Part shown: in pieces, positions 550 through 60,745 of the stretch | Numbering within the stretch: position 1 is the first letter of the stretch | Layout: each line of letters begins with the position of its first letter | Origin: Neobacillus sp. PS2-9 | GTDB taxonomy: Bacteria; Bacillota; Bacilli; Bacillales; Cytobacillaceae | DNA: 64,000 bases | NCBI RefSeq assembly: GCF_030915525.1 | Contig: NZ_CP133269.1 | Span: forward strand, 4,755,001 to 4,819,000 | Direction: 5' to 3' | Program-made: the position numbers and the translations under genes | Notes under the pieces: model-generated | What the model was told of the DNA's origin: nothing | Databases searched by the model: none | What the model saw: only the letters and a program-made list of their open reading frames with translations

Positions 550-880
550 GGGACTTTGAACCTCTCACAGTGACCATACAATCCTCTTACTTCCTACTAT
601 GGGAACTGTGAAATCTTCACAGTTCCCATACTTAACTCTTTTTCTCTATATCGGGCACTGTGAACCCTTCACAATTCCCACCATCACCTCTTTTACCCTC
701 GAACTGGCACTGTAACCTCTTCACAATTCCCATGTACACCTCTTTTACTCTCTAACGGGCACTGTAACCCCTTCACAATTCCCACCATCACCTCTTTTTC
801 CCTCTAACAGGCATTGTGACCTCTTTATAATTCCCACCCTCACCTCTTTTTCACTCTAACGGTCACTTTGAATCTCCCCT
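550..880. repeat. Tandem array A, ~52-bp units with inverted repeats
   Basis: This fills most of the 470-bp gene-free gap 481-950. Units begin near 550, 601, 653, 705, 757, 809 and 861, so the period is 51-53 bp. Each unit is a GGGCAC-type start, an inverted repeat, then a pyrimidine-rich spacer close to ACCTCTTTTTCCCTCTAAC. In the unit at 601 the arms are perfect over 12 bp (GGGAACTGTGAA paired with TTCACAGTTCCC). Later units keep GTGAA/TTCAC with decay. There is no open frame with coding character. It lies between convergent genes. Arrays with the same period and layout recur at 23.0, 35.7, 42.4, 44.9, 51.8-52.1 and 60.5 kb. Confidence 0.85.
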
Positions 881-911
881 GCTTCCTTTTACAACAAGAA
901 TTTCACTACAA

Positions 912-947
912 CAAAAAACTCAAGCCCCATTCAGCTTGAGTTTTTTT
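912..947 (-). terminator. Rho-independent terminator after the chromate transporter pair
   Basis: Arms AACTCAAGC (917-925) and GCTTGAGTT (934-942) form a 9-bp stem with A-runs on the left and T-runs on the right, so it can end transcripts from either side. It sits a few bases past the stop of the minus-strand transporter gene. Confidence 0.8.
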
Positions 948-950
948 CTT

Positions 951-1478
951 CTATAAGAATATCCCACCATATATTAACGACCCCATGATAACGTAAGCTG
1001 GGTGTACCTTTAATTTTTCAAGCAGGAAAAAGCTTACCCCTACCAGAATCACCGTTTGAAGCACACCTGAATCCGAGTAAGAAGTAGAAAAGAAGCTAAA
1101 TGCCATCACACCTAGCATTACCGCGATAGTCGGTCGGATATAATTGGTCATCCGCTTCACCTTAGGAGAATCTTTATATTTGTATAGAAGACCTAAAAGA
1201 ACAATCATTAATAGAAGCGAAGGAGCAACAGTCGCAAAAATCCCAACGATTGAGCCTAGAACTCCACCCTGCTCATATCCAATGTAGCCGGCCATTTTTG
1301 TCGCAATGGGACCGGGCAGTGAATTTCCTAAGGCTAATACCTCACTAAATTCGGGTACCGTCATCCACCCGTAATGATCGACAACTTCGTTTTCAACAAG
1401 CGGAATCGAAGCAGGTCCTCCGCCATAACCAACAATTCCTGGAATGAAAAAAGCAAGAAAGATATGCCAATAAAGCAT
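951..1478 (-). CDS. Short-chain chromate transporter (CHR family), second subunit
   Basis: A 175-residue hydrophobic protein of the CHR family, equal to half of a full-length ChrA. The signature FxxGxxGYGGGPASIPL near residues 11-26 and the later SLPGPIATKMAGYIGYEQGG are diagnostic of CHR domains, with about six membrane segments. Its ATG overlaps the stop of the upstream paralogue by one base (TAATG), which implies translational coupling and a heterodimer. B. subtilis has the same arrangement in YwrA/YwrB, where both halves are needed for chromate resistance. The family exports chromate, and some members may carry other oxyanions. The terminator at 912-947 closes the unit. Specificity is inferred from family only. 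Confidence 0.9.
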   Translation of the reverse strand: MLYWHIFLAFFIPGIVGYGGGPASIPLVENEVVDHYGWMTVPEFSEVLALGNSLPGPIATKMAGYIGYEQGGVLGSIVGIFATVAPSLLLMIVLLGLLYKYKDSPKVKRMTNYIRPTIAVMLGVMAFSFFSTSYSDSGVLQTVILVGVSFFLLEKLKVHPAYVIMGSLIYGGIFL

Positions 1479-2050
1479 TATCCCACCTCTCTTTCACTAT
1501 TTTTTTCAACCTTAGCAGCCTTATCACGCTTCACTAAGGCAAATAATAATATGGCCACGATTAAAATGGCAGGATGCACATGCAAGACCTCTAATAATAG
1601 TAAACTCCCAACAACCGTTACACCTGCACTAATATGGCCTAGCGTTTGATACGACTTCTTATAAAAATCCCAGGTTAATGTGGCCATCATTACACCTACA
1701 ACTGGTACGACTGCTTTAGTCATGCCTGCTACCCATGGCAGATCCTTGAACGATGCCAATGAGGTTAGCAGGATAATCATTAATATAATAGTAGGAACGA
1801 TGGAGGAAAAAATGGCATTTAGCATACCTACATATCCGCCCACTCGATAGCCGATATACCCTGCCATTTTTGTGTTAATAGGGCCGGGAAGGGTATTTGC
1901 TAACGCCAAAACATCTGCAAATTCATCATCGGTCATCCATTTGTAGGTTCCAACTACCTCTTTATGAACGAGCGGAATCGATGATGGTCCCCCTCCGTAC
2001 CCTAATATTCCGGAACGGAAAAAAGCGATAGATATATCCCTCTGTTTCAT
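1478..2050 (-). CDS. Short-chain chromate transporter (CHR family), first subunit
   Basis: A 190-residue paralogue of the next gene, with the same CHR signatures (SGILGYGGGPSSIPLV near residue 13 and NTLPGPINTKMAGYIGYRVGG near 53) and about six hydrophobic helices. The C-terminal tail is charged and cytoplasmic. It starts 25 bp after the stop of the gamma-glutamyltransferase gene and overlaps its partner by one base, so ggt and both chr genes may form one transcript. Two different half-size CHR proteins side by side are typical of Bacillus, where they form a two-polypeptide transporter with inverted topologies. The link to a gamma-glutamyltransferase repeats the ywr neighbourhood of B. subtilis. 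Confidence 0.9.
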   Translation of the reverse strand: MKQRDISIAFFRSGILGYGGGPSSIPLVHKEVVGTYKWMTDDEFADVLALANTLPGPINTKMAGYIGYRVGGYVGMLNAIFSSIVPTIILMIILLTSLASFKDLPWVAGMTKAVVPVVGVMMATLTWDFYKKSYQTLGHISAGVTVVGSLLLLEVLHVHPAILIVAILLFALVKRDKAAKVEKNSEREVG

Positions 2051-2075
2051 TATTTATTCAACACCTTTTATTAAT

Positions 2076-3686
2076 TTACCATGCCGCAATGGTTCCATCC
2101 GTTCTTGATTCTGTTCCGCCTGAAAGCACACCGGTACTTGGGTCTCTCCAAATGATTTGTCCTCTTCCGAATCCTCCACCATCTAAGGCTACTTCAATCT
2201 CATGACCTTTCCTTGCTAAGGCCGCGGCAATATGTGCTGGGAATGAATGTTCAACTTGAACTTTCTTTCCCTCCATCCATTGCCATCTTGGCGAGTCTAG
2301 AGCTGCTTGCGGATTTAGGTGGAAGTCAACTGTGTTCATGATGACTTGAGCATGGCCTTGAGGCTGCATATACCCACCCATCACTCCAAACGGTCCAACG
2401 GCTTCATTATCTTTTGTTAAAAATCCAGGGATAATCGTATGGTACGTTCTTTTTCCAGGCTCCAAACGATTCTCATGGGATGGATCTAACGAGAAATCAG
2501 CACCTCGGTTTTGCAAGGCGATTCCTGTTCCAGGGATAACGATTCCAGAACCAAAGCCCATATAGTTACTTTGAATGAAGGAAACCATATTGCCCTCGCC
2601 ATCTGCCGTTGCCAAGTAAACAGTACCGCCTTTAGGCGGTGTGCCCGGCTCTGGAGTAAGAGCAACATCCCCAATTAAGCTTCTTCTCGCTTCTGCAAAT
2701 TCTTCCGACAATAACTGTTCAGCTGTAACGGACATTTTTTCTGGGTCTGTTACATATTTTTTGGCATCAGCAAAAGCTAGCTTCATCGCTTCAATCTGCT
2801 TATGATACGTATCCACTGATTCCTTTTCTTTCAAGTCAAAGCCCTTGAGCATGTTAAGGGCCATTAAGGCAACGATTCCCTGGCCATTCGGCGGAATCTC
2901 CCACACATCATAGCCTTTGTAATTAACCTTAATCGGCTGTACCCACTCAGGCTTGTATGCAGCTAAATCCTCTTTTGAAAGGAATCCACCGTGCTGCTTT
3001 GAGAACTCGTCGATTTGATCGGCCAATTCTCCGCGATAAAAGCTTTCCGCATTGCTTTCCGCAATCTTGCGTAATGTGTTGGCATGACCTTTGGAGCTCC
3101 AGATTTCCCCTGTTTGAGGAGCCTTTCCATTTGGAGCAAAGGTTTCAAACCAACCTTTATATTCATCGCCAGTAAATAAATCTTTGAATCTATTAAAAGC
3201 GATATTCCAGTACTTCCCTAAAATTGGGCTTAACGGGTAGCCATTTTCCGCATACTCTATGGCCGGCTGTAATACTTCCGTTAATGGAAGCTTACCGAAA
3301 CGACGGGACAACTCCGCCCATGCCGCAGGTACACCGGGAACCGTAACGGGTACAAGGCCAAAGGTTGGCATCTTTTCATGCCCCATTTCCTTAACCGCAT
3401 CAATCGAGATGCTTTTTGGAGAAGGGCCGCTTGAGTTTAGACCATGCAGTTCGCCTTTTGTCCATACAAGCGCAAAGGCATCTCCACCGATCCCATTGGA
3501 GGTTGGTTCGACTACCGTTAAACAAGCAGCAGTTGCAATCGCCGCATCAATGGCATTCCCGCCCTTTTTTAATATATCTAGACCTGCTTGTGCCGCTAAG
3601 GGCTGAGATGTTGCCACCATGCCATTTTTAGCGATTGTCGTCATTCTTTGTGATGGATATGGATAGTTCAAGTAATCAAAGTTCAT
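2076..3686 (-). CDS. Gamma-glutamyltransferase, YwrD-like, cytoplasmic
   Basis: A 536-residue Ntn hydrolase of the gamma-glutamyltranspeptidase family (peptidase T3). It cleaves or transfers the gamma-glutamyl group of glutathione and related peptides. The expected autoprocessing nucleophile is Thr355, in GGTVYLATADGEGN. The conserved start (NGMVATSQPLAAQAG, then GGNAIDAAIA near 42-51) and the C-terminal glycine-rich loop (ALDGGGFGRGQ) are present. There is no signal peptide, unlike secreted GGT but like B. subtilis YwrD, so it probably works inside the cell. The neighbouring oligopeptide importer suggests that gamma-glutamyl peptides are taken up and cleaved internally; that is inference. 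Length is normal for the short YwrD-type branch. Confidence 0.92.
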   Translation of the reverse strand: MNFDYLNYPYPSQRMTTIAKNGMVATSQPLAAQAGLDILKKGGNAIDAAIATAACLTVVEPTSNGIGGDAFALVWTKGELHGLNSSGPSPKSISIDAVKEMGHEKMPTFGLVPVTVPGVPAAWAELSRRFGKLPLTEVLQPAIEYAENGYPLSPILGKYWNIAFNRFKDLFTGDEYKGWFETFAPNGKAPQTGEIWSSKGHANTLRKIAESNAESFYRGELADQIDEFSKQHGGFLSKEDLAAYKPEWVQPIKVNYKGYDVWEIPPNGQGIVALMALNMLKGFDLKEKESVDTYHKQIEAMKLAFADAKKYVTDPEKMSVTAEQLLSEEFAEARRSLIGDVALTPEPGTPPKGGTVYLATADGEGNMVSFIQSNYMGFGSGIVIPGTGIALQNRGADFSLDPSHENRLEPGKRTYHTIIPGFLTKDNEAVGPFGVMGGYMQPQGHAQVIMNTVDFHLNPQAALDSPRWQWMEGKKVQVEHSFPAHIAAALARKGHEIEVALDGGGFGRGQIIWRDPSTGVLSGGTESRTDGTIAAW

Positions 3687-3830
3687 GAATCGTTCTCCCC
3701 TTATACATACATTTCATGATTGTTGCTCTTTAACTTTCCTTTGTTAATCATTTTATACTATTAAACTTACAAACGGAATATTCATTTCGAAAAAAATAAC
3801 AAAAAGAATTGTACGATTTTTGATTTTAGC

Positions 3831-3904
3831 TATGTTAAACTTGCCTGTTGATTTCCGCTCCAATCAACAGGGTGTAAAAATCAACAATGCTCTTTAACAC
3901 AGCC
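3831..3904. repeat. Short form of a dispersed Bacillus-type repeat (internal deletion)
   Basis: The sequence runs from TGTTAAAC (3833) to TTTAACA (3893-3899) and carries CTGTTGATTTCCGCTCCA joined directly to ATCAACAGGG. It matches both ends of the 176-bp element at 35447-35622 but lacks its 105-bp GC-rich interior. The junction is the single 10-bp TTCCGCTCCA (3853-3862), which occurs twice in the long copy. It sits between the oligopeptide operon terminator and the ggt promoter. Confidence 0.85.
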
Positions 3905-3914
3905 TTGATTTTAA

Positions 3915-3954
3915 CAAAAAAGAGGCGCCCTCAAAGTGAAGGGATCAGCCTCTT
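3915..3954 (-). terminator. Terminator of the oligopeptide transporter operon
   Basis: On the minus strand AAGAGGC (3954-3948) pairs with GCCTCTT (3926-3920) and a T-run follows. It lies immediately after the stop of the last ABC gene. Confidence 0.8.
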
Positions 3955-3960
3955 GCAAAT

Positions 3961-4953
3961 TTAGGCGTAATGACATGCAACAAAATGATTCCCGCTTACT
4001 TCAGTAAATGCTGGCTCTTCAGCCCTACATTTATCCGTTGCTAATGGACATCTTGTATGAAACCGACAGCCGCTTGGAACATTAATTGGACTTGGCACAT
4101 CCCCAGTTAATATAACTCTTTCCCTTTTCTTCTCTTCATTTGTAGAAGGGATTGCAGATAGCAAGGCTCTTGTATACGGATGAAGCGGATTGTCATACAG
4201 TTCCTTTTTATCAGCAAGCTCCACCATTTTCCCCAAGTACATCACTGCTACCCGGTCGCTGACGTGCTTGACAACACTTAAGTCATGAGAAATAAATAAA
4301 TAGGTTAATTGATGTTCCTTTTTTAATCGCTGTAATAAATTTAGAATTTGTGATTGTACCGATACATCAAGCGCAGATACCGCTTCATCACAAACGATTA
4401 ATTTTGGATTCGTACATAACGCACGGGCAATGCTGACCCGTTGACGCTGACCACCAGAGAATTCATGTGGGAAACGATGATAATATTGCTCGTTTAACCC
4501 GACTTCTACTAATAAATTGCAAACATAATCGTACACATCTTTTTTAGGAACAATCTTATGTGTCTCCACAATTTCAGACAGCATGGTTCCTACTGTCATC
4601 CGTGGATTCAGCGAGCCATATGGATCCTGGAAAACGATTTGCAGATCCTTACGGTTATCTCTCATTTCCTTCTTTTTTACACGAGTAATATCTTTTCCTT
4701 CATATATAATAGTTCCAGAGCTTGGCTCATGGAGTCTGAGGATCGCACGTCCCATAGTGGATTTGCCACAGCCTGATTCTCCAACGATCCCCAACGTTTC
4801 TCCTTTTTTTAAAGAAAAGCTGATTCCATCCAATGCTTTGACAACCTGTTTTTCTTTAGAAAAGAACCCTTGGTCACCAACAGGAAAGTGTTTGGTTAAA
4901 TTTTGAACCTCAAGAAGATTTTGTTGCTGCGATTTCTCTAATTGAAGACTCAT
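3961..4953 (-). CDS. Oligopeptide ABC transporter ATP-binding protein, OppF/DppF type
   Basis: The second ATPase of a peptide importer, 330 residues from the chosen start. It has Walker [13 protein letters not shown] near 56-67, ABC signature FSGGQRQR, and Walker B LIVCDEAVSALD. The C-terminal oligo_HPY region carries cysteines (GCRFHTRCPLATDKC) that in this family can hold an iron-sulphur cluster. The ATG at 4953 was preferred over the one at 4974 because AAGGAAGGTGAG lies right in front of it. It overlaps the end of the OppD gene by 44 bp, so the two are translationally coupled. It is the last gene of the A-B-C-D-F operon and drives uptake with OppD. Confidence 0.93.
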   Translation of the reverse strand: MSLQLEKSQQQNLLEVQNLTKHFPVGDQGFFSKEKQVVKALDGISFSLKKGETLGIVGESGCGKSTMGRAILRLHEPSSGTIIYEGKDITRVKKKEMRDNRKDLQIVFQDPYGSLNPRMTVGTMLSEIVETHKIVPKKDVYDYVCNLLVEVGLNEQYYHRFPHEFSGGQRQRVSIARALCTNPKLIVCDEAVSALDVSVQSQILNLLQRLKKEHQLTYLFISHDLSVVKHVSDRVAVMYLGKMVELADKKELYDNPLHPYTRALLSAIPSTNEEKKRERVILTGDVPSPINVPSGCRFHTRCPLATDKCRAEEPAFTEVSGNHFVACHYA

Positions 4954-5950
4954 TAAGCTCACCTTCCTTTTCATTCCATTTATCTGTATATTTCCAACAG
5001 CTTACAGTATGCTGTTCCTCTATCGATGTAATATCCGGAGCATGACTTCTACAAATCTCTTGTGCGTATGGACATCGATCAACAAATCGGCATCCTTTTG
5101 GCATGGCATCCGGTGATGGGACAGACCCTTTTATGACAAAAAGCTCTTCCACATTATCTTCTGCATCGACATCCGGGATGCACCTCAATAAACCTTGCGT
5201 GTATGGGTGAAGCGGATTGTTAAAGACGGTTTTCCTACTTCCGTATTCAACAGCTTTTCCTGCGTACATCACCAGAACCGTGTCAGCCATTTCAGAGACA
5301 ACAGCTAAATCATGGGTAATCATAATAATTCCCATATCCAAGTCTTTTTGCAAATTCTTCATTAAATCCAATATTTGCGCTTGAATCGTAACATCCAATG
5401 CAGTGGTTGGTTCATCCGCAATAAGAAGTTCTGGATTACAGCTTAGCGCGATCGCAATCATCACACGCTGTCTCATTCCTCCGCTCAATTCATGCGGATA
5501 GGCATCGATCCTTTTTTCAGGTGATGGAATGCCCACCAGTTTTAACATTTCAATCGCCTTAAGCTTTGCTTCTTTTTTATTTAAATTCTGATGAATAATG
5601 ATCGTTTCAGCTATTTGTTTACCGACCGTCTGAACAGGATTAAGCGAGGTCATTGGTTCTTGGAAAATCATTGAGACCTGGTTGCCGCGAATTTTACTCA
5701 TTTGTTTCATTGATTTACCAGCTAAATTTTCTCCCTTTAACAGGATTTCTCCTTCGATTTGTCCTGTCTCAGGCAATAAACCCATTACAGAAAGGGAGGT
5801 CATACTTTTTCCACAACCCGATTCACCTACAATGCACAGGGTTTTTCCCTTTTCAACCGTAAACGATAACCCGGCAACAATATTCGTTGTCCTCTTCTTG
5901 CCAACAAAGCTGACTTTTAAATCCTTAACCTCTAATAATGAATTTGACAT
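4910..5950 (-). CDS. Oligopeptide ABC transporter ATP-binding protein, OppD/DppD type
   Basis: A 346-residue ATPase that powers peptide uptake. Walker A is [10 protein letters not shown] at 41-50, the signature is LSGGMRQR, and Walker B is [12 protein letters not shown]. The C-terminal oligo_HPY extension with [18 protein letters not shown] is present, typical of peptide or nickel importers. GAGGGG stands before the ATG. It begins 10 bp after the permease gene and overlaps OppF. The Walker A ends in Met where many relatives have Thr, as is usual for OppD/DppD proteins, so this is not a defect. Confidence 0.93.
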
Positions 5951-5960
5951 ATTATTCCCC

Positions 5961-6851
5961 TCACTTCAGCTTAGGATCGAGTGCATCACGTAATCCATCA
6001 CCAAATAAGTTGATTGATAGAACCGTTAAAAAGATAAATAATCCTGGGAACAATGAAATCCACGGAGCATCTTTCAGATATCCTTGTCCCATCGATAACA
6101 TCGCACCCCAGCTCGGTGTTGGCGGTTGAGTACCTAATCCTAAGTAGCTAAGTGATGCTTCAGAAATGATAGCTGCAGCAATGGATAAAGTCGCTTGAAC
6201 AAGAATTGGTGGTAAGCAGTTTGGAAAAATGTGACGGAACATAATTTTTATATCGCTAATACCTGATGCTTTAGCCGCCGTGACATATTCTCTTTCCCTT
6301 TGACTCAATACTTCTCCCCTTACTAGACGAATAAAGTTAGGTGTAAAAATAATTCCAATTGCAATCATCGCGTTTTGTAATCCCGCACCAAGTACAGCTG
6401 CAAGGGAAAGGGCTAATACTAGTGGTGGGAATGAAAGCAACGCGTCTGTGAAACGCATGACTACATATTCATCAAGGACTCCTCTGTAATATCCTGAAAA
6501 TAATCCAATAGGAATTCCGATTACAAGAGCTATACCAACAGAGATAATACCAGCTTGGATGGAAACTCGTGCTCCATAAATAATCCGGCTGAAAATATCG
6601 CGGCCCAGTTCATCCGTACCCATGATATTGGCTGCACTTGGACTTTGAAGGAATTTCGCATAATCCTGCTCGCTTGGGCTATGCGGTGCAACAATTGGAG
6701 CAAACACAGCCATCAAGATGAGAAGAAGAGTAAACACTCCACCAATAACTGCTAATTTATTTTGAAAAAAACGAGAACTCATTTCTTTCCATCTACGTTT
6801 TCTTGGACTTTCCACTTTTACTAGTTGTTCCAACTTAGCTTCCATCGTCAT
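5961..6851 (-). CDS. Oligopeptide ABC transporter permease, OppC/DppC type
   Basis: A 296-residue inner-membrane permease. The N-terminal cytoplasmic stretch (about 1-30) precedes the first membrane helix at 31-52, the OppC N-terminal domain motif NIMGTDELGRDIFSRIIYG and five further helices. The EAA-type coupling loop REYVTAAKASGISDIKIMFRH contacts the ATPases. The ATG is preceded by AGGAGGAC and overlaps the OppB stop by 4 bp (ATGA), so coupling is tight. It forms the channel with OppB. Confidence 0.93.
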   Translation of the reverse strand: MTMEAKLEQLVKVESPRKRRWKEMSSRFFQNKLAVIGGVFTLLLILMAVFAPIVAPHSPSEQDYAKFLQSPSAANIMGTDELGRDIFSRIIYGARVSIQAGIISVGIALVIGIPIGLFSGYYRGVLDEYVVMRFTDALLSFPPLVLALSLAAVLGAGLQNAMIAIGIIFTPNFIRLVRGEVLSQREREYVTAAKASGISDIKIMFRHIFPNCLPPILVQATLSIAAAIISEASLSYLGLGTQPPTPSWGAMLSMGQGYLKDAPWISLFPGLFIFLTVLSINLFGDGLRDALDPKLK

Positions 6852-7801
6852 TGTCCTCCTGTCAGCTTTATTCTTGGATCTAGTACGGAATAAAGGATGT
6901 CGATCAAGAAGTTTACCACTACAACAGCAATAGCCATAAATAGGACGGCTCCTTGTACTACAGGGAAATCTCTTGTTAAAATCGCATCAATTACTAGACG
7001 CCCTAGTCCTGGAACGGCAAAGATGGTTTCCGTTATAACTGCTCCACCTAAGAAGGTGGCCAATTGTAATCCACTTACCGTTACAACAGGAATTAACGCA
7101 TTTTTCAAGGCATGTCCAAGGACAACCCCTTTTTCTAATACCCCTTTTGCATAGGCCGTACGAATATAATCAGCCTGCAAAACTTCAAGCATACTTGAAC
7201 GAAGCATCCTTGTAATTTCAGCACTTAAGCGAACACCTACCGCCAGCGCTGGTAAAATCATTAACATCAAACTCTTTTTAAAATCAACCCATGGTTCCAC
7301 ATATCCAGAAGGTGCGAACCAGCCTAGTGAGATTGAAAAAATAAAGATCAGTAAAATACCTAAGAAAAATGGCGGAATAGATACACCAGACAATGCAAAA
7401 GTCGTTCCAAAGTAATCCCAGAAGCTTCCCTTTCTCGTTGCTGAGATTATACCAGCCGGGATCGCAATGATCATGGCAATTAAAAAGGACATAACAGAAA
7501 GCTGAATGGTTACCGGCAATTTTTGTAGTAATACACTAAGCACCGGTGTATTATCCTTCAATGAATTTCCAAGATCTCCTTGAAGTACGTTTGATACCCA
7601 ATGGATATATTGCATATAAAGAGGATCATTCAATCCCATTTTCTCACGTAAAGCCTGAAGAGCTTCCTGGGTTGCTTCTTGCCCTAAAATCATCCTTGCC
7701 GGGTCACCTGGTGTCACATGGACTAATGAAAAAACGATAATACTTACTAAAAAAAGAATGACCACCATAAGACCTAATCTTCGAATTAAAAACTTTGCCA
7801 C
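6848..7801 (-). CDS. Oligopeptide ABC transporter permease, OppB/DppB type (GTG start)
   Basis: A 317-residue permease. A longer frame reaches 7879, but its first 26 residues would run through an intercistronic hairpin and lack family similarity. GTG at 7801 has AAAGGGAGGGG in front and gives the usual beginning (xAKFLIRRLGLMVVILFLVS). Features are the first helix at about 8-30, the HVTPGDPARMILGQEA loop, the EAA loop ADYIRTAYAKGVLEKGVV and six membrane spans. It pairs with OppC in the peptide channel. The gap to the binding-protein gene is filled by the hairpin at 7846-7875. Confidence 0.92.
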   Translation of the reverse strand: MAKFLIRRLGLMVVILFLVSIIVFSLVHVTPGDPARMILGQEATQEALQALREKMGLNDPLYMQYIHWVSNVLQGDLGNSLKDNTPVLSVLLQKLPVTIQLSVMSFLIAMIIAIPAGIISATRKGSFWDYFGTTFALSGVSIPPFFLGILLIFIFSISLGWFAPSGYVEPWVDFKKSLMLMILPALAVGVRLSAEITRMLRSSMLEVLQADYIRTAYAKGVLEKGVVLGHALKNALIPVVTVSGLQLATFLGGAVITETIFAVPGLGRLVIDAILTRDFPVVQGAVLFMAIAVVVVNFLIDILYSVLDPRIKLTGGQ

Positions 7802-7845
7802 GTATGCCCCTCCCTTTCTAAGGCGTTCAGCTGTGATGAAATATG

Positions 7846-7875: not shown

Positions 7876-7889
7876 TCAAAGCTTATTGC

Positions 7890-19545: not shown

Positions 19546-19645
19546 GACAGTAAGCAGTGGTTATCTGACAGTTAACTAGCTCTATGCGACAGTTAAATAA
19601 CGCTATCCGACAGTTAACCAATGCTATCCGACAGTTAACTAGCTT
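19546..19645. repeat. Array B, five 21-bp units with GACAGTTAA core
   Basis: GACAGT starts at 19546, 19567, 19588, 19609 and 19630, exactly 21 bp apart. The consensus is CTATCCGACAGTTAA plus six variable bases. It lies between the divergent ABC exporter and MFS genes, in a 329-bp gene-free gap. Confidence 0.85.
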
Positions 19646-22956: not shown

Positions 22957-23047
22957 ATTATCCACTCCCATTGTTAATTATTAAAATCATCAAAGCCGCT
23001 TTCAACGGGGTTATAATGGTTTTTCATTGGTTTTTAGCTATAATGAC

Positions 23048-23275
23048 TTTCATCCGCTTTATGAAGGACAGTTCTACCTCAATTTCCATCAAAACTGTCT
23101 TTCATCCACTTTATGAAGGACAGTTCTACCTTAATTTCCATCAAAACTGTCTTTCATCCACCTTATGAAGGACAGTTCTACCTTGATTTCCATCAAAACT
23201 GTCTTTCATCCACTTTATGAAGGACAGTTCTACCCTGATTTCTATCAAAACTATCTTTCATCCATATTGTTAGCA
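23048..23275. repeat. Tandem array C, 52-bp units
   Basis: TTTCATCC starts at 23048, 23100, 23152, 23204 and 23256, exactly 52 bp apart. Each unit holds two nested inverted repeats: CTTTCAT with ATGAAGG, and GGACAGTT with AACTGTC. The gap 22957-23306 (350 bp) contains nothing else recognisable apart from the divergent leaders. Units are over 90% identical, so this array is younger than array A. Confidence 0.9.
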
Positions 23276-35710: not shown

Positions 35711-35845
35711 TGGGCTTATTAACCCTTCTAAATCAGACTGGCTAGCTCTTTTTCCATCGGCTTTGGGAGTTATAAACCTCTCTTATCGACCGGTTAACTG
35801 TTTTTCTAACGGTTTCGGGAGATTAAACGTCCCTATTTACCCTTA
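35711..35845. repeat. Array H, three diverged ~52-bp units
   Basis: Units start near 35711, 35764 and 35817. Each has a GGG...CCC inverted repeat (GGGCTTATTAACCC, GGGAG/CTC, GGGA/TCCC) and a spacer like GTTTTTCTAACGG. It is weak as a repeat, but period and layout match arrays A, E and F. With the element at 35447-35622 it accounts for the 514-bp gap 35410-35923. Confidence 0.55.
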
Positions 35846-42453: not shown

Positions 42454-42740
42454 AATCAAACGTTTGATTAGTTTTTCTAAACTCACCATCTTGTATAGGC
42501 AACTTTTAATCAAACGTTTGATTAGTTTTTCTAAACCCACCATTTTGTATAGGCAATATTTAATCAAACGTTTGATTAGTTTTTCGAATCCCGCCTTCTT
42601 GTATAGACAACTTTTAATCAAACGTTTGATTAGTTTTTCGAATCCCGCCTTCTTGTATAGACAACTTTTAATCAAACGTTTGATTAGTTTTTCGAATCCC
42701 GCCTTCTTGTATAGACAACTTTTAATCAAACGTTTGATTA
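42454..42740. repeat. Array D, six 54-bp units each with palindrome AATCAAACGTTTGATT
   Basis: The palindrome starts at 42454, 42508, 42562, 42616, 42670 and 42724, exactly 54 bp apart. The last three complete units are nearly identical; the first two differ in the spacer. Because 54 is divisible by three, it yields long but meaningless frames of 18-residue repeats on both strands. It fills the gap between the convergent DedA and NRDE genes. A single ATCAAACGTTTGAT also stands before tcyP (47441). Confidence 0.95.
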
Positions 42741-42745
42741 GTTTT

Positions 42746-43501
42746 TTAAAGGTCCACCTTATAGCTCCGTTCACTTACCTCTCCATCAGAAAATACCCGC
42801 TCCACATATTCCATTTCTTTTACCGATAATAATAAAACGGTTGAACTCCGTGTCCCATAGTGTTCGCTTTGAATAAACAATGGAGAAAGTAACCTTTCCC
42901 ACTCTAACGATACGCCTGTGTTTGGAAGAGATTCATCTAGGGCAGGATCTGCATGTTGAAGAAGCAACATTAACTCCTCAACCAGGTTTTCTCGAGCCCC
43001 TGTGATGATTTGGGACAGACCTTCCTTTCCTCTTTCCACCTTCGGCCATTCCGTATTTAACAAATGGTTACTGACACCATAGATGCCAGGCTCCAGCTTT
43101 TGAAGCTCCTGCCCATTATTTGAATAATAATAGAGCTCTTTCGCATCACCCGCTAATAAGTTATAACCTGGATACTGCTGTTTACGATTATCTAACCCCT
43201 GCATGTACTCCTTCAAATCGCCATTATATTTTAAAGCATTTGCCACTAATTCCCCGCGGGATTGCTTACCTGTGGTTACTTCCTTTGGATTGCGATAATT
43301 AGTTAACGCTGCAAATCTTCCAGAAGTGGTAACTCCCATCCACGTACCCATCTTCTCTAAATCCCGGCCTGCAAGGATGGTAGGATCGTCCTCCCAGTAG
43401 TGAATGGGTGCAGTAGGACGCCGATAAAATTCATCACGGTTAGCGGCGACAATCAATGGACATTGTGGATGAATCTTGTAAGCAAATAATATTAAACACA
43501 T
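42746..43501 (-). CDS. NRDE family (TANGO2-like) protein
   Basis: 251 residues. It starts MCLILFAY, where Cys2 is expected to become the N-terminal nucleophile of an Ntn-hydrolase fold, and has the family name motif NRDE at 21-24 in LIVAANRDEFYRRPT. Further conserved parts are ILAGRDLEKMGTWMGV and ALTNYRNP. Eukaryotic TANGO2 and bacterial relatives have been linked to haem handling; the bacterial role is little known. No signal peptide. It is convergent with dedA across array D. Confidence 0.88.
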   Translation of the reverse strand: MCLILFAYKIHPQCPLIVAANRDEFYRRPTAPIHYWEDDPTILAGRDLEKMGTWMGVTTSGRFAALTNYRNPKEVTTGKQSRGELVANALKYNGDLKEYMQGLDNRKQQYPGYNLLAGDAKELYYYSNNGQELQKLEPGIYGVSNHLLNTEWPKVERGKEGLSQIITGARENLVEELMLLLQHADPALDESLPNTGVSLEWERLLSPLFIQSEHYGTRSSTVLLLSVKEMEYVERVFSDGEVSERSYKVDL

Positions 43502-44883: not shown

Positions 44884-45225
44884 GGTCACGTATGGCCTTT
44901 TCCTTCGTGACCCTTTATTCGGTTCTATTACTGTTTGAGTAACGTAAAACCTTCCTACGTTACCCTCTGCCTCTTCTTTTTTCTGTTTGGGGCACGTAAA
45001 ACCTTCCTACGTTACCCTCTGCCTCTTCTTTTTTCTGTTTGGGGCACGTAAAACCTTCCTACGTTACCCTCTGCCTCTTCTTTTTCTGTTTGGGGCACGT
45101 AGACCCTTTCTACGTTACCGTCTACCTCTTCTTTTTCTGTTTGGGGCACGTAGACTCTTTCTATGTTACCCATCGCCTCTTCTTTTTTCTGGTTCGGGCA
45201 CGTAGAACCTTCTTACGGACCGTTT
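44884..45225. repeat. Array E, seven ~52-bp units with changing stem arms
   Basis: ACGTA occurs at 44888, 44942, 44994, 45046, 45097, 45148 and 45200 (spacings 54, 52, 52, 51, 51, 52). The spacer is close to CTGCCTCTTCTTTTTCTGTTT. The first unit has arms GGTCACG with CGTGACC, the next GTAACGTA with TACGTTAC, later ones only ACGTA/TACGT with base changes. It occupies most of the 555-bp gap 44787-45341; the remainder is the PAP2 leader with a GGGGGGCGG ribosome site. Confidence 0.9.
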
Positions 45226-51738: not shown

Positions 51739-51787
51739 CGTTTATTTGTTCCAAATCGTTAAATTTTGACTTATTTAGAGCAGTTAA

Positions 51788-52160
51788 CCGGAATATCTCC
51801 GCTTATTTCCGCTTCATAAGCGTCCTCTATATACAATAGCCGGAAATTCTCCGCTTATTAATTCTCATACCTACACGAAAATCAACAATGAATGATAACA
51901 GAACCTTTCTTTTAAGAATTTGATTTTTAGTTATTGAGTTTAGATTTCTAACAAGTTATCTTTCTTTATCAGCTTATTTTGGATGTTTATCAGCGAATCT
52001 GAGGTATTTATCAGCGAATCAACTTTTTCATTAAACTGAACAGGCGTTAGTCACTTGGACTAGTTACCTTTTCAGCCTTTTTTCTTCCTGAACGGGCACT
52101 AGTCACCTTGACTAGTTACCCTTCCACCTCTTTTCCCCCGTAAACGGACACTAGTCGCTG
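51788..52160. repeat. Repeat cluster: 52-bp arrays F0 and F, and a 21-bp array
   Basis: F0: CCGGAA...CTCCGCTTAT at 51788 and 51840 (52 bp). Three TTATCAGC units at 51966, 51987 and 52008 (21 bp). F: units at 52039, 52091 and 52143 (52 bp) with arms ACTAGTCA and TGACTAGT and spacer CCACCTCTTTTCCCCC. With the sigma-54 region and the REP element at 52177 this explains the 945-bp gap 51339-52283. Confidence 0.8.
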
Positions 52161-52176
52161 CCCTCCCAAACAAAAA

Positions 52177-52226
52177 GGTGTCAGGCACCGCCCGTGGACA
52201 TTTATCCACGAGTGGTGCCTGACACC
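52177..52226. repeat. REP-like element, near-copy of 47504-47553
   Basis: GGTGTCAGGCACC and GGTGCCTGACACC ends, with inner GTGGACATTTATCCAC. The two copies differ at few positions over 50 bp. Confidence 0.85.
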
Positions 52227-52241
52227 AAAAGATGCCCCCAC

Positions 52242-53306: not shown

Positions 53307-53318
53307 TTGCATCTCCTC

Positions 53319-54824
53319 CTAATACAAAGCTGCTAATCGCATGATTTCTTCTTGCGATGTTTTTGCTGTTTCAACGATTCCCGCTGCTTTACCATTACTC
53401 ATGACCAAAATTCGGTCGGTTACCCCTAAAAGCTCTGGCATTTCAGAAGAAATCATAATAATTCCCTTTCCTTCTGCCGCTAACTCATTAATTAACTGGT
53501 AGATTTCAAACTTGGCTCCTACATCGATTCCTCGTGTCGGTTCATCCAGCAATAAAATATCCGGTTTGGTTAAAAGCCAGCGCCCAATAATCACCTTCTG
53601 CTGGTTACCGCCTGAAAGACTGCCAATGGCTGTTTTTTGTGAAGGAGTTTTTACCTTCATTGAATCAATGACCCATTGTGTATCGTGTTCTACTTTCTTA
53701 TCTGACAGAAACCCGCTTTTTGTTTTATATTGTTTCATGTTAGAAATAATCGAGTTAAAGCTAATGCTTAATTCAGGGAAAATTCCTGTTGATCTTCTTT
53801 CTTCTGTTACGAGTGCAAAGCCGTTTTTGATCGCGTGCTGTGGAGAATGATTTTGAATCACCTTTCCGTGTAATTCAATTGTTCCAGATGAGATTCCGCG
53901 AATGCCAAACAGCGCCTCAACCACCTCTGTTCGCTTTGAACCTACTAATCCAGCAATCCCTAAGATTTCACCTTTACGAAGTTCAAAGTTAATATTTGAA
54001 AAAGAAGGCTGTGTTTCCGCTGTAAAATCTGAAACCTTTAAGATCTTTTCTCCCGGTTCGTTTACTTTAGCTGGGAATCGCTGAGATAGGTCACGGCCAA
54101 CCATCAGCTTGATAATCTCATCTGTTGTTAATTCCTTCGCGCTTCTTGTCGCAATATATTGACCGTCACGCATGATCGTCACTTCATCGGAGATCTTCAG
54201 AATTTCCTCCATTTTGTGAGAAATATAGATGATCGCCACATGCTCACTTTGGAGCTTCCGGATGATTCTAAACAGATGATTTACCTCTGTTTCGGTTAGG
54301 GACGAGGTCGGTTCGTCCATTACGATGATTTTTGAATGATAAGAAACGGCTTTAGCAATTTCCACCATTTGCATTTCCGAAACGGATAATGTGCTCACCT
54401 TGCTGCGAGGGTCGATGTTGATATCCAAACTCTTAAAAATAGCTGTTGTATCCTCGTACATTTTCTTCTCATCAACGAAAATGCCTTTTTTCGGATATCG
54501 CCCTAGCCATAAATTATCCATAACATTTTGCTGACGTACCTGGTTTAGTTCTTGGTGCACCATGGAAACGCCGTTTTCAAGTGCCTGCTTTGAATTAGCA
54601 AAGGAAACCTCTTTTCCATCAAACAGAATTTTGCCTTCATCCATCGAGTAAATGCCAAATAGGCATTTCATTAATGTGGATTTTCCTGCACCATTTTCGC
54701 CCATCAAGGCATGTACGGAACCAGGCTTCACTTTCAGGGAAACGTTGTCCAATGCAAGTACTCCAGGGAATCTTTTGGTAATATTAAGCATTTCTAGTAG
54801 ATTGGTAGTACTGGATTCTGACAT
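53319..54824 (-). CDS. mglA: Galactose ABC importer ATPase MglA
   Basis: 501 residues with two ABC domains in tandem, typical of RbsA/MglA/AraG. Domain 1: Walker [10 protein letters not shown] (about 44-52), signature [14 protein letters not shown], Walker [14 protein letters not shown]. Domain 2 (about 265-495) has a degenerate Walker A (GLVGSKRTE), signature [15 protein letters not shown] and [11 protein letters not shown]. Degeneracy of the second site is normal in this family. AAGGAGG precedes the ATG. A 200-bp gap with a structured repeat separates it from mglB. Confidence 0.92.
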
Positions 54825-54932
54825 GAGCGAACCTCCTTACTAACTATTTAAAAAATAAGAGAAGCACCAGCGTTGTGCGTCCCATTTTTGATAAAAATTT
54901 CAGATCCTACGGTGTCCCGCTCCAAATCTTTG

Positions 54933-55025
54933 CAGCAATACCCCGAACGAAAGAAAAGAAGATTCCTTTCCTTCGTTCGAAGAGCGCCAGGGGCTGACCT
55001 TCATCAGCCCTGGACAGGCGCTTCT
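54933..55025. repeat. Structured repeat between mglB and mglA
   Basis: CGAACGAA/TTTCGTTCG arms (54942-54985) are followed by GAGCGCC, AGGGGCTGA, TCAGCCCT and GGCGCTT, forming a long GC-rich stem on the minus strand just after mglB. It may limit read-through, giving excess binding protein. Part of its sequence recalls the repeat at 39427. Confidence 0.6.
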
Positions 55026-55032
55026 ACTTTTC

Positions 55033-56094
55033 TTATTTATACGCGTCTTTACCAACTTGGATGTTGTCTTTTGTTACTTCAACGTAAGGAACACGAACCG
55101 CTTTCTTGTCGTCAAGCTTCCACTCTGTTCCATCTAAAACGTCCTTACCGTTTGCTGCATTTGTAGCAAGTTCAATGGTTGCTTTACCTTGGTTTTTCGC
55201 GTCATTTAACACAGTACCAACCATTTTCCCTTTTTCAATCATTTCTAATGCTTCAGGAATCGCGTCAACACCTACAACTGGCATATACTTGTCGCCAGAG
55301 AAGTATCCACCCTTTTCAAGAGATGCAATCGCACCTAATGCCATACCGTCGTTGTTAGCGATCACGAATTCGATTTTGTCATTGTATTTTGCTAACCAAG
55401 CATCCATTTTTTCAGTTGCTTTTGTTGCATCCCACATAGCTGTATCCATCGCTAATTCTTCAACTTGGATGCCTTTTTCTTTTACAGTATCAACTGCAAA
55501 CTTTGTACGCGCTTCTGCATCTGGGTGTCCTGGTTCACCTTTTAATAGTACGTATTGGATTTTGCCGTCTTTATTCTTATCCCACTTATCTTTGTTCGCT
55601 TCCCAAGCCTTCGCAATCAATTCACCCTGAATCACGCCTGATTCAGAAGATGTTGTTCCTACATAGTAAGCTTTATCATAGCCTGCTAGTACACTTGCAT
55701 CTGGCTCTTTGTTAAAGAAAATAACTGGAATATTCTTTGGTTTTGCTTTATCAATAATTGTTTGAGCTGCTTTTGGATCTACTAGGTTGATAGCTAGGGA
55801 TTTTGCACCCTTTGCAATCAATGTATCTACTTGCTCAATTTGTTTTGCCTGGTCGTTTTGTGAGTCATTTAGCATAAGGTTTACTTTACCCTTTGCTGAA
55901 TCTTCCATTGCACGACGTACATAGGACATGAAGTTGTCATCAAATTTGTAGATGGTTGCACCAACAGCTGGTAGACCGCCGTCCTTACCTTTGCCAGAAT
56001 CAGAACCGCTTGTTGAGCTGCTGCAGCCTGCGGCTAATAGAATACTAGATGCAACTGTTAAAGATAGAACCAACCCTTTTTTCTTCTTAAGCAT
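55033..56094 (-). CDS. mglB: Galactose/glucose-binding lipoprotein MglB
   Basis: 353 residues. Lipoprotein signal with LLAAGC (Cys24), a Ser/Gly linker, then a periplasmic-binding-protein type 1 domain. The hinge and sugar-contact regions read [37 protein letters not shown] and [12 protein letters not shown], as in MglB proteins of Firmicutes. AAAAGGAGAATGATC precedes the ATG. It is first in the operon, with a perfect cre about 150 bp upstream. Confidence 0.92.
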
Positions 56095-56238
56095 GTGATC
56101 ATTCTCCTTTTTCCTTTTGATAAAGACTAACGGTGCTTAACTAGCCTGCGTGTAAGCCCTTACACATATGTTAGCATCAGGAGAACCACTGCAATAGTTC
56201 CAAACTATAGCACATTTTTGTGAATACCTAGACATTTT

Positions 56239-56252
56239 TGCAAACGATTACA
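56239..56252. promoter_or_regulatory. CcpA cre site upstream of mglB
   Basis: TGCAAACGATTACA fits TGNAARCGNWWWCA at every position. It lies 145-158 bp before mglB, in the promoter region downstream of the sensor operon. Glucose repression of galactose uptake is expected. An inverted repeat TGTAAGCCCTTACA at 56141-56154 may be a site for the AraC-type regulator. Confidence 0.65.
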
Positions 56253-56281
56253 ATTTTCTGATAGTTAAATCCTATTTTTAT

Positions 56282-56326
56282 AAAAAAATGTGAGGCGACT
56301 CCTTTGCTTGAAATCAGCCTCACATT
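56282..56326 (-). terminator. Terminator of the three-component sensor operon
   Basis: AATGTGAGGC (56287-56296) pairs with GCCTCACATT (56317-56326), followed by a T-run on the minus strand, nine bases past the regulator stop. Confidence 0.88.
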
Positions 56327-56335
56327 GAAATCTTA

Positions 56336-57925
56336 TTATTGACTAACGGTTGCCTTGCGGAATTCTGACGGTGATAAGCCGGTTTGTTTTTTAAAGACGC
56401 GGCTGAAATAATTAGGGTCTTTGTAGCCAACGGAATAGCATATTTCCTTTAAGCTCTTCCCTGGATCCACCATTTCTGCTTTGGCGTGCTGGATCCTGAT
56501 CTCCGTCAGATAATCAATAAATGTCATCCCAAATCGGTCTTTAAATAATTTGCTTAAATAAAACGGACTCAATTCCACAAATTCCGCCACTGATTCTAAC
56601 GTAATCGAATCAGCAAAATGCTTTTCAATATATTCCTTGGCTTTATGCAGCATACCCTTAGCATGATTATTTCTCCACACCTGCACATGATGGACAACTG
56701 ATAATAAATGAGATTTTCCTTTTTCAAAAATCACATTTCTATCCTCGAATACATCAATAGTCGGTGTTTGTTCATAGCTGATACCTAAATCATGAAGCAT
56801 ACGCGACAGCAGAATAAACAATTCGTCGAATGACTTTTTCACTAGTACTGCTTTTACGTTTTTATCATCTGCATGCTTGGCAACAAACGTATCAAAAATA
56901 TATAAAACTTGATTGACGTCCCCCTGACGGACCGCCTCTAACAATTTTTTCTCTACTTCAAGTACACCATTTTCCGGGTTTTCCTGGGATGACCCTTGTT
57001 TGACCCCAATGATATACTTACGGTTCGGTGTTTTTAATAGCTGTTTTAGGGCCAATACGGCTTCATGATAGGATTGATTTAACTCATGGGCATGATTATA
57101 AGGGAGTCCCACCCCTATTCGTAGTTCAGCCTGGAAAGATTCTTTTTGAAACAAGTGGTGCAGCCTCTCAACGATCACCTGTACACTCGTTTTAAATTTT
57201 GGTTTTTCCTCAGTCTTTTTACATAAAAATAAAACTGGTACTTGTGAGTCGGTTAATTGCCCAATCATCATCTCTTCATTTTTCCCTACTGATTTTTGGA
57301 CTTCCTTCAGCCACATATACCAATTCTGCCTATCGCTGATTGAAAGCTCGGCATTCGCCCTTGGCTGAAGAGAGAGAAGCATAATATATCCCGAGGTAAT
57401 TTCTACCCCTAATAATTGGCCCCACTCATCGAACGTAATATCTCGAACCGAATTAACTAATAGAGAAGATACCCACTCTTTTTGAGCGATAGATACGGCA
57501 CGCTCGAGGTTTTCTCTTAAGCTTTGCTGTTCTTCTCTAAGTTTCCGCTCCTCTAAGATATCACTAGAAACACGTGCAACTGCCTCCAGGATATCTTGTT
57601 TACTGCTCGGTTTGAGGATATATTCTTTGACACCCTGCTGCATCACTTCTTTGGCGTATTCAAATGTATTAAAAGCAGAAACCATAATAAAGCGGATCCC
57701 TGGGTCCATTTTTCTAATTTCCTTAACCGCTTGAACTCCATCCACACCGGGCATTTTAATATCCATAAAAATAATATCAGGCCTGTGTTCTGCAGCCATT
57801 TCTATTGCTTTCCTGCCATTGGGAGCTTCCCCAATGACCCTTACGTCCTTTAAGGAGCTGTTAATAATTTTCGTTAATGCTTTCCGCTCAATCACTTCAT
57901 CATCCACTATAAGAATACTTAACAA
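56336..57925 (-). CDS. AraC-type response regulator, YesN-like (TTG start)
   Basis: 529 residues from TTG 57925, which has AAAAGGGGGAAG in front; the frame opens at another TTG (57949) without a ribosome site. Receiver domain: DDE at 8-10, phospho-Asp55 in [13 protein letters not shown], Lys in [10 protein letters not shown] ~280-residue central region follows, then two AraC HTHs (about 430-525) with [31 protein letters not shown] and [22 protein letters not shown]. It overlaps the kinase gene by 26 bp. As the operon lies just upstream of mglB, it likely activates mglBAC. Confidence 0.9.
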
Positions 57926-59378
57926 GCCCGCTTCCCCCTTTTTCCGCAATAGGAATGGTCAGTCTAAAATTGGTTCCCTTAGATAGCTCTGATTCGATTT
58001 CAACCACATCATTTCGCTGATAAAAAAGCTGCAGTCTTCTTATGACGTTTTTGACGCCAATTCCATTTGAATGATCTTTTGCCTTTTCAGGTGGTTCGTC
58101 AGCTCCCACAGTCCCATCCACATATTGAAGCAGTCTTTTTTTGACCGACTCGTTCATTCCATCTCCGTTATCGATTACTTCTACGTAGATTCGGTCCTGA
58201 TGACGATAAATATGAAGACGGATTTCGCCATTTGCTTCATAGGCTTCGACGCCATGAATAAAGGCGTTTTCGATTAATGGCTGAAGGATTAAACTAGGAA
58301 TTTCAATATCTAGACAATCTTCCTCAATCTCTGTGACAAACTGGATCCGTTCACCAAATCGAGTCTGTTGAATATAAAAATACTCTTTTACAATTCGTAC
58401 TTCATCTCTAAGGGTCGAAGCTTTATCGAAATCACTTAAGTTATAGCGAAGAATAGCAGCAACTGCCTCTATCAAGCGCGAGGTATGCTCTGCTTCCTCT
58501 AAATAGGCCATCTTTGAAACCGTATTCAAAGTATTGAATAAGAAGTGAGGATTAATCTGGTTTTGAAGACTCCTTAACTCTAATTCTTTTAACAGCTTAT
58601 CTAATTCGCCCTTTTGTTTGATTTCCGTTACTAGTTGTCTTAGGTTTGTCCGCATTTGGTTGAACGTTTCGGTTAACGGCTTTAATTCATCCTTTGTTGT
58701 GATTTTTATATCTTCCCCTGATAAGTTCCCTTTTGAGATTTGCTTAGCCGCTTGTGACAACAAACTAATCGGCTTAGTAATCCCCCCCGAAATCCATAAT
58801 GCCAACAAGGTGCTTAGGAAAAAAGCTGCTGCGAAAAGAGAAATCGACATGAGTTTATAATAATGGTTTTGTCTTTCCATCTGATTATAGAATTCTTGAT
58901 AATCAGTGAGTTTATTGTTCAACAGACCAAGTGTACTTTCTTGCAAGAAGGAGGCAATTTTCATCACTTCATTAAAATGATAGGAATATTGGTTAATATC
59001 GTCCTTTTGGAAGGCCAAAATAGTTGCATCACTTTCTTCCAAAAAACTATCGATCATATTTTTATAATTAATAAGTTTGATATCATTCGTATCTAGTTCC
59101 TCATACAGGCTACTTTGATCCTTGAGGAGCTTGGTCTTTTCTCTTTGATAGTCTCTTAGATACGAAACTTCCTTATCTAAAACATACGCATGCAGTTTTT
59201 CCGCCACTAAATTCGTCCTTTTGGAGATATCATTGAGAAGGAGAAAACGCTCAAAGCTATCATCATATTCAACGACGAGATTTTCACTGCTTTTATAAAA
59301 AAAGAAGCCGACTGAGGATAGCAAAACGACCAGTACGATGAAATAAAGAAGCAATTTGGACCGAATTCTAAATAACAT
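57900..59378 (-). CDS. LytS/YesM-type sensor histidine kinase
   Basis: 492 residues. Membrane helices at about 8-28 and 178-197 enclose a ~150-residue extracellular helical domain. A HAMP domain (about 198-250) leads to the His_kinase box [20 protein letters not shown] with His278, then HATPase with VIDNGDGM and [13 protein letters not shown]. Its ATG overlaps the stop of the sugar-binding protein gene (TGATG). It probably senses sugar through contact of its outer domain with that protein, in the manner described for XylFII-LytS pairs. The phosphate passes to the AraC-type regulator downstream. Confidence 0.9.
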
Positions 59379-60379
59379 CAGTTGTTGTCCTCCTTGTTAT
59401 GCATCACACTTACGGGTAAGTCTCCTATTCTCATAATTCTTGTTTCTGTATGGACAACCTGAGAGACTGTTTTTCCTTCAATTATGTCAATCATCATTTT
59501 CACTGCTCTGTACCCCATTTCATAGGGCTGTTGAACAACGGTTGCCTTGATTGTTCCTCTTCGAATATAGTCCAGGGTTTCAGGTAGCGTATCAAATCCA
59601 ATCACGTACACTTCTCTTTGTTTTTTATATTTCTCAATAACCTGCGCAATTCCGATCCCATCGAGGGCACTGGTTCCATAAAAGGCATTGATTTCGGGGT
59701 GGTCTTTTAGGAGTTGATTGGCCTTTTCTGCTGCTTTTACTGTACTGATTTCGGATTGCTGGATGTCAATAATATGTATTCCCGGCGCTTCTTTTACTGC
59801 GTCCTGAAATCCCTTCACACGCTGTTGCTGATGGTTCGCGTAAAAGGTCCCGGTAATAATGGCAACATTGGCTTTCCCGTTTGTATCGGTAATTAAGGCT
59901 TTTCCAGCCAAATATCCTGAGTAATAATTGTCTGTTCCTATATAGGCTAGACGAAGGCTGTTGGCAGCATCCGTGTCTACTGTGATGACTGGAATTCCTC
60001 CAGCGATGACACGGTTAATTAAAGGGGTAAATTGTTCATCACTTAATCCCTGTGTCAAGATTCCATCTACCTTAGAAGCAGCAGACATTTCAATGGTCTT
60101 TAAATGGTCGTCTATATTTGCCTGCTTCGGCCCCGAGTATTCCAGTAGCACACCATATTTTTTGGCGGCATCCTTTGCCCCGCTTTCAACGAGTCTCCAA
60201 TACTCGTTATCTAGCTCTTCCGGAACAAGGACAAAATGATATTTATAGGTGTCAGGTACTTTCTTTTCAACGGGCAAATGATGGGTAACCACCTTATAGC
60301 CATAAAAAACCGACAAGGAGCAACTCACAATAAATAATAAAACACCAAATGTATACGCTACCAAAGATAACTTGCTCAA
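59378..60379 (-). CDS. Membrane-anchored sugar-binding sensor protein (TTG start)
   Basis: 333 residues. One uncleaved N-terminal helix (about 7-27) is followed by a type 1 periplasmic-binding-protein fold: [69 protein letters not shown]. No lipobox. GGGGAG lies six bases before the TTG. It is the first gene of a sensor operon with kinase and regulator and is similar to, but distinct from, MglB. It likely detects galactose or a related sugar for the kinase rather than feeding the importer. Confidence 0.88.
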
Positions 60380-60456
60380 TCTATCTCCCCACTCTCGATG
60401 CCACTCTAACTACCGCTATTATACGGAACATTCCAAAAATCGACAATGAAAAGAAT

Positions 60457-60745
60457 ATGGTGTCAGGCACCATAGTAAGATACTCTACGGATTCGGACCA
60501 TTCTTTGCTTTTTGATGCTTGGTCTGTCCGAATTGCCGCGCCTTCTGACTATGTTTCTGCTTTTTCCGCCTACTCTGTCCGAATGACCCTCGCATTCGGA
60601 CAACTCTTTGCTTTTTCCGCCTACTCTGTCCAAATGAGCCCTGTATTCGGACAACTCTCTGCTTGTTCACGCTTGGTCTGTCCGAATGATCCACGCATTC
60701 GGACAACTCTTTGCTTTTTTACGCTTAGTTTGTCTGAATAATCCC
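60457..60745. repeat. REP-like half element and array G (51-52-bp units)
   Basis: A single ATGGTGTCAGGCACCAT (60457-60473) precedes the array. TGTCCGAAT-like motifs occur at 60525, 60576, 60627, 60679 and 60731 (spacings 51, 51, 52, 52). Arms are TGTCCGAAT with ATTCGGACA, and the spacer is ACTCTTTGCTTTTTCCGCC. The 413-bp gap 60380-60792 holds only this, the galR terminator and the sensor promoter. Confidence 0.9.

Follow-up and report, generated by a model that had tools for sequence, protein, structure and literature searches.

Intergenic 52-bp tandem arrays of Neobacillus sp. PS2-9 mostly share a covarying 27-bp dyad and may be evenly spaced sites for dimeric DNA-binding proteins

We analyzed tandem arrays in the gene gaps of a window of 64,000 nucleotides (positions 4,755,001-4,819,000; G+C 40 percent) in the genome of Neobacillus sp. 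PS2-9, a single contig of 5,192,194 bases. Eight arrays lie in this window, with units of 52 bp (54 bp in array D). Array A (549-887, + strand), located in a convergent gap as judged from script-called open reading frames (ORFs), is composed of 27-bp dyads such as GGGCACTGTGAACCCTTCACAATTCCC, each with a pyrimidine-rich spacer of 25 bp. The dyads of arrays C (23044-23275, +; 4.2 units), E (44884-45225, +; 5.6 units), F (52036-52165, +; 2.3 units), and G (60487-60770, +; 5.2 units) are TGTCTTTCATCCACTTTATGAAGGACA, GGGCACGTAAAACCTTCCTACGTTACC, GGGCACTAGTCACCTTGACTAGTTACC, and TGTCCGAATGAGCCACGCATTCGGACA, respectively. Array H (35715-35845, +) is degenerate, with ~2.5 units and no clear tagged dyad (defined below) in the dyad scan, and F0 (51782-51864, no strand assigned) consists of two degenerate copies 52 bp apart. 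Array D (42454-42746, no strand assigned) holds six AATCAAACGTTTGATT palindromes at 54-bp steps.

Each of the eight arrays exceeded all of its 1000 dinucleotide shuffles in self-match at lag 52 (54 for D), and this was the best lag among those tried (15 to at most 69) in every case, with values of 0.76 (A), 0.91 (C), 0.49 (H), 0.95 (D), 0.63 (E), 0.68 (F0), 0.69 (F), and 0.54 (G). Tandem Repeats Finder, run on the window at score 40, reported A, C, D, E, F, and G, while the short and degenerate H and F0 were absent from its output at that score. The tandem arrays of ~52 bp in gene gaps that an earlier, sequence-only reading of this DNA had proposed were thus borne out for all eight. That reading had also assigned a common frame to A, E, and F, which we confirm and which extends to G (TGTCCGAATG-N7-CATTCGGACA) and C (TGTCTTTCAT-N7-ATGAAGGACA); its layout of the unit as an arm, an ACCTT loop, a second arm, and CCTCTTTTTC describes the arrays less well than a 27-bp dyad followed by 25 bp.

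We then compared these arrays with others from the same genome, using the window together with 80 further stretches of 20 kb each (1.664 Mb in total, about a third of the genome; two stretches were picked for containing a match) and counting arrays with a period of at least 15 and a score of at least 60. Of 106 arrays, 39 have a period of 52, one of 53, and one of 54 (41 arrays at 52-54), and another 44 have a period of 20-21 and one of 42. In agreement with what the sequence-only reading expected, no broad spread of periods was seen in this sampled third of the genome. In 80 named loci of relatives (1.56 Mb), 23 of 62 arrays have a period of 51-53, and these come from several genera. In 800 kb from four further genomes, only 5 arrays have a period of 52; thus, array density differs strongly among species.

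The length of the unit is nearly uniform. The consensus is 52 bp in 37 of 41 own-genome arrays (the others being 51 twice, 53, and 54) and in 21 of 23 arrays of relatives, and 323 of 378 steps between neighboring units are exactly 52 bp. The spacers, in contrast, are scarcely more alike than shuffled ones (identity 0.36 vs 0.31 among 33 own-genome dyad arrays). Thus, spacer sequence has drifted near saturation while unit length stayed, which upholds the proposal that the length is constrained. This result bears on the idea that the arrays are neutral or selfish satellites, arising by local duplication and functionless spread, with the 52 bp inherited from an ancestral array and homogenization seldom fixing insertions or deletions: a length that stays at 52 despite near-saturated spacers argues against it.

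Repeats of this kind have been described. Among 176 Bacillus genomes, 4029 tandem repeats were found, mainly of 20-21 nt (781) and 51-53 nt (1886), which are fixed in size and specific to a species in sequence, which frequently contain a short signal and its reverse within one repeat, and for which protein polymerization on DNA, nucleoid structure, and small RNA were suggested as roles; 'Bacillus' mesonae is listed among the repeat-rich species in Table 1 (Subirana and Messeguer 2021, PMC8161180). Our arrays agree with these in period (40 of 106 own-genome arrays at 52-53 and one at 54), in the coexistence of multiple families with unrelated sequences within a single genome (the spacer identities above), in being non-coding (0 of 37 own-genome arrays lie within a script-called ORF of >450 bp), in carrying a signal and its reverse in one unit, here the 27-bp dyad, and in the additional 20-21-nt class. 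The window arrays, D apart, are therefore new members of the published Bacillaceae 52-nt satellite class, and the claim of the sequence-only reading that no described element behaves in this way fails, since PMC8161180 reports constant 52-nt, species-specific repeats. The division into 27 and 25 bp, the outer tag, the covariation of the arms, and the DNA-level test given below were not found in the available portions of that article, which presents constant-length, variable-sequence satellites as an enigma whose function is not known.

A search for the best dyad axis in the array consensuses showed that most are built alike, with a 27-bp dyad and, after it, a spacer of 25 bp in which one strand is rich in pyrimidines (mean pyrimidine fraction of the spacer, 0.70 in 58 arrays). 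The dyad has an outer tag, (G/T)G(G/T)C...GAC(C/A), and inner arms that are self-complementary and covary. Because this first axis was selected for symmetry, we repeated the test with the frame fixed by the outer tag alone, excluding four own-genome arrays and two from relatives whose length was not 52. The tag was present at 9 or more of 10 points in 48 of the 58 remaining fetched arrays (shuffled mean 4.8, maximum 12). In these 48 arrays, the seven inner pairs (5:23 to 11:17) matched in 5.17 positions, compared to 1.78 with shuffled interiors, 1.35-2.35 with the axis slid by 1-3, and 2.60 when the 3' halves were dealt among arrays (0 of 1000 deals reached 5.17). The proposal that arms differ between arrays yet stay paired is therefore well founded. 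Since the tag was derived from the same fetched arrays, we used the published families as an independent check: Table 1 of PMC8161180 gives 27 family consensuses, of which 9 have the tag (null mean 1.5, maximum 5), with 5.11 inner pairs in these nine families compared to 1.61 in the null. In 22 of the 48 tagged arrays, G faces A at position 3:25, and thus the dyad is often an imperfect stem. We conclude that most units share a 27-bp dyad site, with an outer tag and inner self-complementary arms, and a variable 25-bp pyrimidine-rich spacer.

Substitutions between units within an array can bear on whether the dyad acts as DNA or as RNA. For strand, conservation, and pair counts, 4 of 41 own-genome arrays and 2 of 23 from relatives, in which the best axis fell between bases, were excluded, as were arrays in which fewer than 8 of the 13 pairs matched (reducing 58 arrays to 51); substitution counts also excluded arrays of fewer than three units (leaving 49 arrays, 375 units), and units with less than 75 percent identity to the consensus were left out for per-site variation and for part of these counts. 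Variation per site was lower in the arms (0.044) than in the central loop (0.121) or the spacer (0.116) (47 arrays, 318 units). This footprint argues against neutral satellites, as does the dyad symmetry maintained while the inner arms change. It also bears on clustered regularly interspaced short palindromic repeat (CRISPR)-like arrays, one of two alternatives that we judged together as highly improbable, the other being tandem intrinsic terminators. Repeats with spacers do recall the former, but these spacers are not unique, departing from their array consensus at only 0.116 per site, and the unit size does not fit. Hairpin-like arms and T-runs would suit the latter, but a terminator scan of A and E (two of the eight arrays) gave one call each, at A a separate terminator beyond the array (913-946) and at E a weak stem of 5 pairs within the degenerate unit that opens the array (44884-44897).

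An RNA hairpin read on either strand should prefer G-U over A-C on that strand. We observed no such preference. The units at least 75 percent like the consensus (329 units from 46 arrays) had 62 G-T, 60 A-C, and 89 other one-sided arm changes; with all units kept, there were 85 G-T and 89 A-C; and mismatches within the consensuses were 14 G-T and 15 A-C. Furthermore, the 211 one-sided changes in the filtered units were accompanied by only 2 compensated doubles, compared to a permutation mean of 2.5. Within arrays, the arms thus mutate without compensation, an outcome that the sequence-only reading had named, for related strains, as counting against its proposal. With degenerate units retained, compensated doubles did rise to 10 (5.9 permuted; 47 of 1000 permutations reached 10), but doubles of any kind were also in excess (21 vs 12.4), a pattern that simultaneous changes at many sites of degenerate edge units would produce. 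Since there is no compensated excess in the filtered units and G-T equals A-C, duplex DNA sites are favored over selected RNA hairpins.

These results weigh against expressed arrays whose hairpins act as small RNAs or sponges, as Subirana and Messeguer proposed, and which we consider rather unlikely. That proposal gains from the RNA-seq reads reported for 52-nt repeats of B. coagulans (PMC8625621), from the covariation of inner arms between arrays, and from the compensated doubles among degenerate units. However, neither strand shows G-U above A-C, compensated changes are not in excess among units close to the consensus, reads by themselves are no proof of function, and no Rfam family reached its gathering score on any window array.

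We recorded how the arrays lie relative to genes, which were called by script as ORFs of at least 90 codons. Convergent gaps are enriched (11 of 36 own-genome arrays, compared to 76 of 623 background gaps; Fisher P = 0.004), divergent gaps are depleted (3 of 36 vs 159 of 623; P = 0.017), and in codirectional gaps 15 of 22 arrays lie closer to the 3' end of the upstream gene. Among 193 genomes of the family, the exact dyad TGTCCTTCAT-N7-ATGAAGGACA is present in 58, spread over 10 of the 25 genera, while its reversed control had 0 matches in the listed genomes. We read 20 apparently single sites of this dyad, picked from the listed places. Ten lie between convergent ORFs, and at 14 the best self-match lag is 51-53, although several of these values are low and have no null; thus, many apparently single sites look like remnants of short arrays. 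In the 300 kb sampled at 1.5-2.5 Mb of the PS2-9 genome we found none of the 41 52-bp arrays and one 20-21-bp array, but we claim depletion of the sample only, since a TGTCCTTCAT dyad is present at 2322677.

Some of these observations suit neutral satellites. Scarcity in divergent gaps and a bias toward the 3' ends of genes suit tolerated DNA, the sequence of array A is matched at arrays at 4.32 and 1.07 Mb, which shows dispersal, and 135 of the 193 family genomes have no exact TGTCCTTCAT dyad. Set against the fixed length, the conserved arms, and the maintained symmetry, they leave functionless spread an unlikely account.

We tentatively favor, from sequence comparison, the idea that the dyads are duplex-DNA sites for dimeric proteins placed five helical turns apart. 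The common frame and its covariation, the conserved arm footprint, the equality of G-T and A-C changes, the fixed length, and the position in gene gaps all point in this direction, and we counted the recurrence of TGTCCTTCAT-N7-ATGAAGGACA across genera for sequence-specific recognition. Each dyad would be bound by a dimer of a sequence-specific protein, which might be one of several relatives with different inner specificities or a single protein reading mainly the tag. As 52 bp corresponds to five helical turns, neighboring dimers would share one helix face and could co-assemble. Arrays may expand, contract, and homogenize through recombination or slippage, with selection on the dyad-to-dyad distance preserving the length of the unit. 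The assemblies might, more speculatively, serve as architectural or boundary elements 3' of genes, a role also suggested for clusters of repetitive extragenic palindromes and bacterial interspersed mosaic elements (REP/BIME) in enterobacteria.

A number of observations weigh against this explanation. Single steps depart from 52 bp in 55 of 378 cases, and classes at 31, 42, 63, or 73 bp, which helical phase alone would also permit, are not common. The tag is missing from 18 of the 27 published families, and eight arrays of relatives carry the tag with just 2-3 of 7 inner pairs, five of them Mesobacillus-type (loci L096, L098 at 12942, L100, L103, and L107). The right arm is the best conserved part of the unit (~0.024 vs ~0.064 for the left), and thus the dyad site is not fully symmetric. 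Covariation between arrays, taken alone, is also compatible with a hairpin, as is the compensated excess with all units kept, and the gene contexts come from script calls rather than annotation. Because unrelated inner arms coexist in one genome, several proteins or loose recognition would be needed, and no binding protein was found, the transposase discussed below being the only candidate screened.

A more specific form of the duplex-DNA explanation, which we regard as doubtful, is that the arrays are platforms for undiscovered dimeric proteins that read (T/G)GTC-N19-GAC(A/C) and polymerize across sites exactly five turns apart, with inner-arm specificity diversifying between arrays so that one genome would hold several orthogonal boundary or anchoring systems. 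The common covarying frame, the DNA-like conservation, and the recurrence across genera provide a defined bait for protein pull-down, and the tag, the inner arms, and the spacing are now defined as variables that can be tested.

We also considered a link between array orientation and replication. In 35 of 37 own-genome arrays, the lagging-strand sequence is the pyrimidine-rich one, and this is so for 4 of 4 arrays located between codirectional genes that oppose replication. The same holds for 19 of the 21 arrays taken from named relatives, a set in which several are apparently orthologous copies of one array. In further genomes, the same polarity was found in 14 of 24 arrays (G127, 8 of 9; G137, 2 of 4; G143, 1 of 6; G069, 1 of 3; G008, 1 of 1; G109, 1 of 1). 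With 14 arrays against 10, we rejected polarity as a general rule; it is strong in the PS2-9 genome and is not general.

The REP/BIME clusters of enterobacteria are extragenic palindromes clustered near gene 3' ends, and REP palindromes have a GTAG or CGTC tag at one end; further features of these clusters are binding of gyrase or IHF and copies that flank the gene of a REP-associated tyrosine transposase (RAYT). The 52-bp arrays resemble them in being extragenic palindromes clustered near gene 3' ends, and GTAG occurs in some arms of the 52-bp units. Unlike REP/BIME, they have no single conserved palindrome, follow a strict 52-bp period, and showed no link here to a RAYT. Mobilization by such an enzyme would fit the palindromic, extragenic, 3'-end-proximal arrays, and two RAYT-like genes are present in the genome (435932-436258 and 617144-617473; with model NF047646 one scores 84.0 and the other 75.2 bits, NCBIfam cut-off 80). 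However, the palindromes that flank both genes are of GGGGACTGTCCC type and are not 52-bp units, and none of the 29 GGGGACTGTCCC-type elements in our own-genome sample, many of them between 0.53 and 0.71 Mb, lies within 300 bp of a 52-bp array. Moreover, among 61 genomes of the genus, 58 have a match to the RAYT model (23 above the cut-off), with or without the TGTCCTTCAT dyad, while one genome (G136) has 13 TGTCCTTCAT dyads and no RAYT-model match. We thus consider mobilization by RAYT improbable.

Array D, which the sequence-only reading had placed with the others, proved distinct. Its unit holds the perfect 16-bp palindrome AATCAAACGTTTGATT, which relatives carry twice next to the same TANGO2 gene, with the two copies 33 bp apart at seven loci and 35 bp apart at one (L057, L058, L060, L063, L064, L067, L069, and L077); the named loci that hold the nearest TANGO2 relatives, at 68-72 percent identity, are mostly labeled Neobacillus or Bacillus sp. 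Elsewhere in the PS2-9 genome it occurs in one sampled stretch (L164, 11427-11704 and 16359-16634) at steps of 54, 56, 57, 110, and 165. Because the palindrome recurs at other spacings, mostly 33 bp, we left D out of the 52-bp class and take it, from these comparisons, for a different palindrome family; AATCAAACGTTTGATT could be an operator for some regulator.

The 20-21-bp period class, present in the same genome and window, is not mentioned in the sequence-only reading. The window contains one such array (19562-19641, no strand assigned; period 21, core TATCCGACAG), and the cores of the class differ (TATCCGACAG, TTTATCAGCGAAT, TGACGAGTAAA, and GGCGGAATAAA), with a common TTTAT-type edge by eye; some of the 45 arrays with periods of 20-21 or 42 may be coding. 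As in the 52-bp class, the period of these repeats is constant and corresponds to an integral number of helical turns; the dyad frame was examined in the 52-bp class alone. Another extragenic palindrome, GGTGTCAGGCACC...GGTGCCTGACACC, occurs in the window at 52168-52228 and 60459-60478, and 3 of its 31 elements in the own-genome sample have a 52-bp array no more than 300 bp away, including those beside F and G. The sole Rfam match at gathering score in the window is a purine riboswitch (RF00167, 17587-17686, - strand).

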